A stretch of DNA of 64,000 nucleotides, taken from assembly GCF_900104085.1 (NCBI RefSeq), contig NZ_FNLD01000001.1, positions 475,048 to 539,047 on the forward strand. Direction: 5' to 3'. Positions 13,238 to 33,761 of the stretch are shown here, piece by piece. Below the pieces are notes generated by a model that saw nothing but the letters and a program-made list of their open reading frames with translations, had not been told where the DNA came from and did no database searches. A program made the position numbers and the translations under genes. Position 1 is the first letter of the stretch; each line of letters starts with the position of its first letter. The stretch comes from Pseudoxanthomonas sp. CF125. GTDB taxonomy: Bacteria; Pseudomonadota; Gammaproteobacteria; Xanthomonadales; Xanthomonadaceae.

Positions 13238-13341
13238 CGTCATCCCGGCGCAAGCCGGGATCCATCTTGATCTTGCTCCTGGTTCTCTCTTGTCCGGATG
13301 GTTCAAAAGCAAATTGGATTCCAGCTTGCGCTGGAATGACG
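13238..13341. repeat. CGTCATYCC head-to-head palindrome pair, copy A
   Basis: The left arm starts CGTCATCCCGGCGCAAGCCG. The right arm, read on the other strand, starts CGTCATTCCAGCGCAAGCTG; both continue into GGATCCA/GGAATCCAA and A/T-rich inner parts. It separates the macroglobulin gene from pbpC and overlaps the 5' end of the open pbpC frame. The same family recurs at 20017, 20404, 30639 and 32210. Confidence 0.85.
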
Positions 13342-20016: not shown

Positions 20017-20057
20017 CGTCATCCCAGCGAACGCCGGGATCCATTTTGATCTTGCTC
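20017..20057. repeat. CGTCATYCC palindrome, single arm, copy B
   Basis: CGTCATCCCAGCGAACGCCG and the following GGGATCCATTTTGATCTTG match the left arm of copies A, C and D. No right arm follows; instead the GIY-YIG gene ends 11 bases on. Confidence 0.8.
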
Positions 20058-20067
20058 CAGCGTCGAG

Positions 20068-20364
20068 TCAGAGTATTCCGGAGTAAAGATCCAGCCACTC
20101 CGGATTCGACTTCTCCACCAGCTCGATCTTCCAAAGCCGCTTCCAGGCCTTGATCGCCTTCTCACGCAGGATTGCAGATTCCATGACCCCGTGCACCTCA
20201 TACCAGACCAAAGTATGTATCCGGTACTTCTTGCTGAAGCCACCCACCTGGTCGTTCTTGTGCTGCCAGATGCGGGCGGGGAGGGTGGAGGTGACGCCGA
20301 CGTACAAAGTGCCGCGTGGTGCACTGGCGAGGATGTAGACGCAGGGGATGCGTTCTCGTTGCAT
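20068..20364 (-). CDS. GIY-YIG family nuclease, repeat-flanked
   Basis: 98-residue single-domain GIY-YIG protein. The GIY and YIG strands appear as VYILAS and LYVGVTS, followed by Arg in LPARIWQHK, a KKYRIHTLVWYE stretch and a Glu/Arg helix (ESAILREKAIKAWKRLWKIEL) with a NPEWLDLY C-terminus. This is the YhbQ/COG2827-like group of small stand-alone nucleases. It lies between two CGTCATYCC palindrome elements (20017-20057 and 20404-20530), with little other non-coding sequence. Some related proteins have, as I recall, been described as sequence-specific single-strand nucleases (Ssn) acting on repeated palindromes in Neisseria; the link here is inference. No neighbour suggests an operon. Confidence 0.85.
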   Translation of the reverse strand: MQRERIPCVYILASAPRGTLYVGVTSTLPARIWQHKNDQVGGFSKKYRIHTLVWYEVHGVMESAILREKAIKAWKRLWKIELVEKSNPEWLDLYSGIL

Positions 20365-20403
20365 TTGGCTGTCCTTAGCCCACGATTACATGAATTAGTG
20401 AAT

Positions 20404-20530
20404 CGTCATCCCAGCGAAAGCTGGGATCCATTTTGATCTTGGCGGGAGTCCCGGTCACTCGCGTGACTCGAACGACCCAATACCACGAAGGGCAAAGTCA
20501 AAATGGATTCCAGCTTTCGCTGGAATGACG
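20404..20530. repeat. CGTCATYCC head-to-head palindrome pair, copy C
   Basis: The left arm begins CGTCATCCCAGCGAAAGCTG at 20404; the right arm ends in GCTTTCGCTGGAATGACG at 20530, each with an internal hairpin. The inner parts TTTTGATCTTG and CAAAGTCAAAATGG are also inverted. It lies just upstream of the GIY-YIG gene start. Confidence 0.87.
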
Positions 20531-22694: not shown

Positions 22695-22715
22695 GTTCTG
22701 AATTCCTTTGCCTTT

Positions 22716-22879
22716 CCCTTCTCCCGTCGGGAGAAGGTGCCTGTAGGGCGGATGAGGGTACGGCGGAGTAGAAATCGTGGCGCTGAGGAGTGCTTTAAAG
22801 AGCCGATTACTATCTTCTGGGTTCATCAGAAGTATTTCGCCGTACCCTCACCCCAACCCCTCTCCCGCAGGAGAGGGGC
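22716..22879. repeat. CCCTTCTCCC-type paired palindromic repeat, copy 2
   Basis: Bounded by CCCTTCTCCCGTCGGGAGAAGG and CCCCTCTCCCGCAGGAGAGGGG hairpins, with inverted GGATGAGGGTACGGCG / CGCCGTACCCTCA inside. It fills the sucB-lpd gap within the operon. The loop contains GCTTTAAAGAGCCGA, nearly identical to part of the loop insert in repeat copy D at about 30652. Confidence 0.78.
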
Positions 22880-30638: not shown

Positions 30639-30769
30639 CGTCATCCCAGCGGCTTTAAACAGCCGAATGGCTGGTCAAGCTGGGATCCATTTTGACTTTC
30701 GCGTTTCAGCAGGAATGTACCGATGTCCAGCCAAGATCAAGATGGATCCCAGCTTTTGCTGGGATGACG
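30639..30769. repeat. CGTCATYCC palindrome pair with loop insert, copy D
   Basis: The left arm CGTCATCCCAGC is split from its partner AGCTGGGATCC by a 27-base insert that includes AACAGCCGAATGGCTGGTCA (30658-30677). The right arm (GATCCCAGCTTTTGCTGGGATGACG, ending at 30769) is uninterrupted. It lies between the VOC operon and the purB end, upstream of the former, downstream of the latter. Confidence 0.85.
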
Positions 30770-30773
30770 TCGT

Positions 30774-33761
<2,988 letters not shown>

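Follow-up and report, generated by a model that had tools for sequence, protein, structure and literature searches.

We analyzed a 64,000-nucleotide stretch of the genome of Pseudoxanthomonas sp. CF125 (Xanthomonadaceae, Gammaproteobacteria), hereafter the window, in which a gene for a small GIY-YIG nuclease lies between two other genes and is framed by short palindromic repeats, or arms, that carry the motif CGTCATYCC. The protein resembles the Ssn proteins, which are reportedly site-specific single-stranded GIY-YIG nucleases of Neisseria that act on a repeated sequence and affect transformation. A reading made from the sequence alone had placed the 98-residue gene between a single arm and a head-to-head pair of arms and had pointed to three further pairs in the window, at 13238, 30639 and 32210. 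The framing was confirmed, with arms at 20017 (+), 20404 (+) and 20530 (-), and the three further pairs exist, the latter two with an interrupted left arm. The features are listed here, with arms typed by the base at position 10 of their 27 positions.

20068 to 20364, minus strand: GIY-YIG nuclease gene (Ssn-like), 98 amino acids; Pfam GIY-YIG match at E 1.2e-11; AlphaFold model with pLDDT 94 and pTM 0.86
20161 to 20163, minus strand: codon of Glu68, invariant among 51 aligned sequences and the presumed catalytic glutamate of the GIY-YIG fold
20146 to 20148, minus strand: codon of Ala73, the residue correlated with arm base 10
20017 to 20043, plus strand: single arm on the downstream side of the gene; base 10 is A, and the stem has one mismatch
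20404 to 20430, plus strand: arm on the upstream side of the gene, forming the first half of a head-to-head pair
20504 to 20530, minus strand (start at 20530): second half of that head-to-head pair
13238 to 13341, no single strand: clean head-to-head pair, left arm G-type and right arm A-type
30639 to 30769, no single strand: head-to-head pair with a nested insert breaking the left arm; inverted relative to genome G156
32210 to 32328, no single strand: head-to-head pair of C type, as at paralogue L003, with a nested insert breaking the left arm

Hairpin arms and framed paralogues in one genome

The motif CGTCATYCC occurs eight times in the window, compared to a mean of 1.49 and a maximum of 6 in 100 dinucleotide shuffles. 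Genome-wide, the full 27-base arm pattern is present in 184 copies, 92 on each strand, and a reversed-pattern control returned 0. Pairing was judged on 190 distinct 27-mers taken from the fetched loci without any pairing filter. At the eight stem positions 87% of cells paired, compared to 21-47% when the register was slid by 1 or 2. Positions 10 and 19 carry all four Watson-Crick pairs in this set (G-C 76, C-G 46, A-T 25, T-A 12). Because the unfiltered 27-mers pair and position 10-19 covaries, the arm is a true, covarying hairpin. The insert in the left arm of the 30639-30769 element is found, reverse-complemented, in the right arm of the close relative G156. Separately, we observed that the inserts in the left arms at 30639 and 32210 resemble part of a repeat beside a transposase gene elsewhere in the genome (L036, described below), one repeat family nested in another.

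The encoded protein retains the GIY-YIG motif residues of a stand-alone domain of about 100 amino acids, and G18, R31, E68 and N87 are invariant in the alignment of 51 sequences. Glu68 is presumed to be the catalytic residue, as in other GIY-YIG nucleases; residue 73 sits five positions beyond it, at the end of the same helix in the predicted structure. When PDB structures were ranked against the window protein, 1zg2 (UPF0213) came out on top, followed by Slx1 entries (6seh), with UvrC 1yd6 at rank 12, and the best E value was only 4e-3. The extra DNA-binding modules of homing endonucleases were not found in this 98-residue protein, which has one Pfam domain and matches TIGR01453 only at E 0.11.

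The genome holds five GIY-YIG genes, three framed by arms and two not. The two unframed genes read as UPF0213-like and uvrC; what the window protein has in common with UPF0213, Slx1 and the N-terminal GIY-YIG domain of UvrC is the fold. The other two framed paralogues, L002 and L003, are each 55% identical to the window protein (L004), and the three differ both in their arms and at residue 73: the window protein has Ala and A-type arms, L002 has Glu and G-type arms, and L003 has Lys and C-type arms. Among the first 100 of the 184 arms in the genome, 49 are A-type, 37 C-type, 13 G-type and 1 T-type. The three residues match the three main arm populations, and the genome appears to hold three nuclease-repeat pairs that look separate from one another.

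The same genome offers an internal control. REP-associated tyrosine transposases (RAYTs) are the enzymes expected beside repetitive extragenic palindromes (REPs), and the 4.2 Mb genome contains six RAYT-like Y1_Tnp matches (L036-L041). None of the six has a CGTCATYCC hairpin within ~1.5 kb, in a search that did not extend to degenerate arms; L041 has one bare CGTCATYCC nonamer with no palindrome after it. Instead, five of the six loci are spanned by distinct inverted repeats of other sequence, and L036 has such a pair on one side. The control is a useful one: RAYT genes keep their own repeats and GIY-YIG genes keep CGTC repeats. A separate high-copy repeat of ~45-60 bases lies at about 22714-22770 of the window, just upstream of an lpd-like gene, and has many matches in this genome and its relatives.

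The gene and its arms across genomes

The sequence-only reading held that gene and repeats should occur together across genomes, with repeats adjoining the gene at different loci, and that repeats equally abundant in genomes lacking the gene would speak against a partnership. We scanned named genomes with an alignment of the three paralogues, retaining the 80 best of 577 confirmed loci, which span several phyla, and adding more loci from the family. A flanking inverted pair scored above the maximum of 333 shuffled controls at 69 of 111 loci (one of them a duplicate, L122 being L003). Among 122 loci with a nearly full gene, a set with three duplicates (L165, which has no arms, repeats L044) in which arms were chosen by requiring at least 5 of 6 stem pairs, an arm was present 5' of the gene in 95 and 3' of it in 90; 76 loci had both. 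Arms therefore stand beside the gene at many unrelated loci, as anticipated.

Co-occurrence across genomes was also borne out, strongly in the family and more loosely in the class. In 149 family genomes, at least 10 arms were present in 39 of the 49 with a strong gene match (E <= 1e-15) and in only 6 of the 100 without (Fisher p 3e-20). These family counts are low, since the pattern used had W rather than Y at position 24; the class pattern used Y. Gene-bearing members were on average richer in arms in 11 of the 12 genera that hold both kinds. In 369 genomes of the class, at least 10 arms were found in 25 of 74 with a strong match and in 16 of 295 without (p 8e-10). Arms are thus not equally abundant in genomes lacking the gene. 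Two family members, G137 and G115, have strong genes and almost no standard arms (0 and 3, respectively). A variant arm lies beside their genes, and its distribution was predicted and then tested: it is present in exactly 3 of the 149 genomes (45 copies in G089, 25 in G115 and 9 in G137), which belong to one genus and all carry the gene.

Several observations weigh against a strict partnership. Arms are plentiful in genomes without an intact gene, including G543 (139), G486 (119), G249 (78), G438 (58, with a gene fragment), G378 (50), G247 (43) and others. The 16 arm-rich class genomes without a strong match imply that arms can exist without the gene. Twenty-two genomes are rich in arms and have no strong match, 16 in the class and 6 in the family; a search for any GIY-YIG domain covered 11 of them, 8 and 3 respectively. 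In 8 of these 11 the matches lay only in frames of at least 249 amino acids. The other three, G259, G261 and G486, also have a match in a short frame (115, 110 and 131 amino acids), and the best match of these genomes to the three-paralogue model was weak, at E 3e-6 to 2e-8. Conversely, zero arms of the searched form were found in 27 of the 74 class genomes that have a strong match, and an Aeromonas record has a homologue and only two arms, those that frame the gene. The gene can be lost while its arms persist, and certain genes may rely on arms that the search pattern missed. Collectively, these data establish that gene and arms are paired both physically and in evolution, in a real and widespread nuclease-repeat partnership.

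The window locus itself could be followed through the genus. We took the syntenic stretch from 18 relatives, and both neighboring genes were present in 16. The nuclease gene occupies the locus in 11 of these 16 (apparently frameshifted in G156), is a remnant in G091 and is absent from four. The four relatives without the gene have no arms at this locus either, and their intergenic gap is only 107-150 bases. Six of the 11 gene-bearing relatives have A-type arms and four have G-type arms, and G016 has none there. In all four relatives readable on both sides (G063, G168, G158 and G162), the two sides agree in arm type. In the four relatives with G-type arms the position of residue 73 is occupied not by Ala but by Glu, Glu, Gln and Gly. 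In addition, in G117 (L167) and G172 (L162) the nuclease gene directly adjoins a tandem array in which an arm pair recurs about every 125 bases. Since 11 of 16 relatives carry the gene at this site, it is, judged by synteny, an old resident of the locus in the genus.

A defence-system reading was rejected, as PADLOC scores for the three paralogues were no better than E 0.03. Carriage by phages or plasmids was likewise rejected: no match to the protein was found among 50,697 phage records at E 1e-5, and in a plasmid collection 33 records matched, at least some of them of chromosome size. Two records labelled as plasmids, L263 (N. gonorrhoeae, 2.17 Mb) and L264 (Aeromonas caviae, 4.94 Mb), look chromosome-sized.

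Residue 73 and base pair 10-19

Base 10 is the same in the 5' and 3' arms at 68 of 70 loci, compared to a mean of 27.8 and a maximum of 43 in shuffles. On a tree of 106 proteins it changes 18 times, compared to 44.3 when shuffled, and 0 of 200 shuffles were as low; duplicates L159, L167 and L122 were excluded from the tree sets. We then asked which protein position follows it by scanning 96 protein columns against 27 arm positions. Column 71, which is residue 73 of the window protein, carries 1.32 bits on base 10, and equally on base 19. The next-best column for base 10 reached 0.70 bits. A weaker second association links protein column 79 with arm loop base 16 (0.74 bits). In the training loci, Ala or Val accompanies A in 17 of 18 cases, Lys or Arg accompanies C in 30 of 32, and Glu, Asn or Gly accompanies G in 49 of 54; two T-type loci have Ala.

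From this pattern a rule was fixed beforehand (Ala predicts A or T at base 10, Lys or Arg predicts C, and Glu, Asn or Gly predicts G) and then applied to 67 held-out loci. A readable residue and arm were available at 43 of these loci. The rule decided 41 and was right in 36, compared to a shuffled mean of 16.2 and a maximum of 28 in 20,000. Held-out locus L199 and training locus L075 are one and the same gene; with L199 removed, 35 of 40 were right (shuffled mean 16.4, maximum 27). Restricting the comparison to held-out proteins less than 80% identical to any training protein gave 32 of 37. Outside the training set, six of the 33 matching plasmid-collection records were fetched. In four named loci (N. 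gonorrhoeae, Aeromonas, Photobacterium and Azospirillum) Lys is paired with C-type arms each time, and the Sinorhizobium and Shinella loci have Arg at residue 73 and no such arm nearby.

As a control for relatedness, we drew edge-disjoint pairs of differing arm type from the whole tree of 148 rows, including unsupported forks; L222 was excluded, as it was from one of two counts made on the held-out loci, and L199 remains among the rows. Residue 73 differs in 17 of the 19 pairs. Both members fit the rule in 13 pairs, none are swapped and 6 fall into neither class. Measured against pairs of the same type, residue 73 ranks first of 96 columns, with an excess of 0.62 compared to 0.37 for the next. 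Overall, 134 of the 148 rows fit the rule, training rows included.

Other results count against the rule or narrow its reach. Of the 67 held-out loci, 19 show no arm and 5 no readable residue. The exceptions among them are L194, L198, L218, L223 and L222, the last with a spurious arm. The held-out loci from the family are relatives of training loci, and of held-out proteins less than 70% identical to training only 6 were decided, 4 of them correctly, too few to judge. T-type arms accompany Ala, Lys and Arg alike, and contact chemistry does not account for Gly with G-type arms (7 training loci). For the remaining residues the chemistry is sensible if base 19 is the one read (Lys or Arg with G, Glu or Asn with C, Ala with T), where both the reading of base 19 and the contact itself are inferred. 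Weighing these results, we consider residue 73 a likely determinant of specificity. A literature search, which did not reach the Ssn paper, found no published report of the residue rule, and the rule is not known to be part of that study. The rule is the new, testable part of this work; the locus itself belongs to a known kind.

Known systems, alternatives and a proposed mechanism

The arms belong among the CGTC REPs of Di Nocera, De Gregorio and Rocco (2013), described as having a CGTC tag, a stem of 8-9 bp, a 4-base loop, a CCA tail and head-to-head dimers (PMC3733652). The window arms share the tag, stem, short loop, CCA tail and dimers; what differs is the partner gene proposed here. That paper concludes that CGTC REPs apparently lack a dedicated transposase, and the term GIY-YIG is absent from its text. 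The likeness to Neisseria dRS3 drawn in the sequence-only reading was apt, as the CGTC-1 repeats of Neisseria are equated there with dRS3 (Di Nocera 2013, PMC3733652). A gonococcal homologue lies among such repeats: the N. gonorrhoeae protein is 52% identical to the window protein over residues 7-98 and is surrounded by CGTCATTCCCGCG...CGGGAATC repeats, with 98 arms in the record, compared to 96 in the Photobacterium record. We take this open frame and its repeats to be Ssn and its target. Given this degree of identity, the window protein is very likely a member of the Ssn family. The likeness lies in a small stand-alone GIY-YIG protein beside a highly repeated palindrome, here present in 184 copies and framing three genes. 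The difference is that this genome has three paralogues with three arm types.

Hints of mobility come from the class genome G361. In 9 of 9 fetched stretches (L243-L251), 3' fragments of the gene lie beside or between arms. Six complete mini-elements of 145-214 bases, consisting of arms and roughly the last 30-39 codons, are present on five contigs. The mini-elements resemble internal-deletion derivatives of a mobile unit; their outer flanks are partly shared, and they could be one amplified composite. One similar element of arms and gene fragment is present in G438 (L262), and no arms accompany the fetched gene fragments of G206, G466 and G498. Against mobility, the 30639 site, which is unoccupied in several relatives and has boundaries that are not clean, gave no sign of a clean insertion flanked by a target duplication.

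Could the arms be ordinary REP or REPIN elements moved by RAYTs, with the GIY-YIG gene a bystander? Head-to-head pairs do look like REPINs, and six Y1_Tnp genes are at hand, but the repeats found around those genes are of other sequence and no CGTCATYCC hairpin lies within ~1.5 kb of them. Tyrosine transposase genes of CGTC-positive species are likewise reported not to be flanked by CGTC repeats (Di Nocera 2013, PMC3733652). We give this explanation very little credence, and RAYT as the arm partner was rejected by adjacency. The resemblance to RAYT-REP systems (REPtrons) is one of layout, an enzyme gene framed by partner palindromes with several such pairs per genome; the enzyme is a GIY-YIG nuclease rather than a Y1 HUH transposase, and the tag is CGTC rather than GTAG. 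A different concern is that residue 73 merely hitch-hikes: gene and arms are linked and the sampled proteins related, and if the two form one travelling cassette any protein position would correlate with arm type. However, the other columns are far weaker, and residue 73 stands first when pairs on separate branches are compared, so that we regard hitch-hiking as unlikely.

The remaining alternatives concern what the nuclease does with the arms. If the arms are targets only, the protein would cut incoming single-stranded DNA and modulate natural transformation with no role in spread, and the gonococcal record, with its homologue and 98 arms, is in keeping with this. Such a role does not by itself account for the framing on two sides, the parallel change of flanking arms and protein, the tandem arm arrays next to the gene and the multi-copy, arm-bounded gene remnants of G361; we hold it possible and somewhat doubtful. 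Alternatively, gene and arms may form a mobile cassette whose nuclease mobilizes itself and arm-bounded DNA, as proposed for RAYTs with GTAG REPs. The cassette layout in this genome and elsewhere, the multi-copy mini-elements of G361 and the four of 16 relatives without gene and arms all favor such a cassette. However, the gene is old at the window locus and therefore moves rarely, the copies in G361 have outer flank bases in common and may be a single amplified composite, and no target duplication was seen at the 30639 site. Moreover, no joining activity is known for a lone nuclease. The cassette is a possible but tentative reading, and a part for the nuclease in spreading the arms is to be proposed with the same caution.

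The sequence-only reading had proposed that the protein recognizes these elements. This is supported in silico by adjacency, by co-occurrence, by an arm variant that follows its protein and by the one-residue prediction, and recognition of the arms by the GIY-YIG protein is very probable. As a whole, the data are best explained by an Ssn-type sequence-specific nuclease whose target would be the surrounding, genome-scattered CGTC-REP hairpin arm, a reading in which we have good confidence. In the mechanism we propose, the protein would bind either the single-stranded arm or the arm extruded as a hairpin. Residue 73, near the presumed catalytic Glu68, would read base 19, with Lys or Arg recognizing G, Glu or Asn recognizing C, and Ala recognizing T. 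The protein would then cut the strand at the base that it reads. Most likely, such a cut would allow DNA bounded by arms to be copied or recombined into new sites, or would limit the entry of arm-bearing DNA during transformation.

More generally, we lean towards a model in which each CGTC REP belongs to a partner GIY-YIG nuclease and residue 73 sets the version of the hairpin that is read. Several separate pairs would then coexist per genome, and pairs would diverge when residue 73 changes and base pair 10-19 of the flanking arms changes in concert with it. If true, the system would be the GIY-YIG counterpart of RAYT-REP. The work links the CGTC REPs, a widespread class of palindromes in bacteria, with one particular enzyme gene, and offers a one-residue recognition rule backed by repeated changes on separate branches. 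Should the rule hold at the bench, the target of an uncharacterized Ssn-like nuclease would be predictable from its sequence, and the upkeep and spread of CGTC REPs could be approached through naturally matched pairs of enzyme and hairpin.
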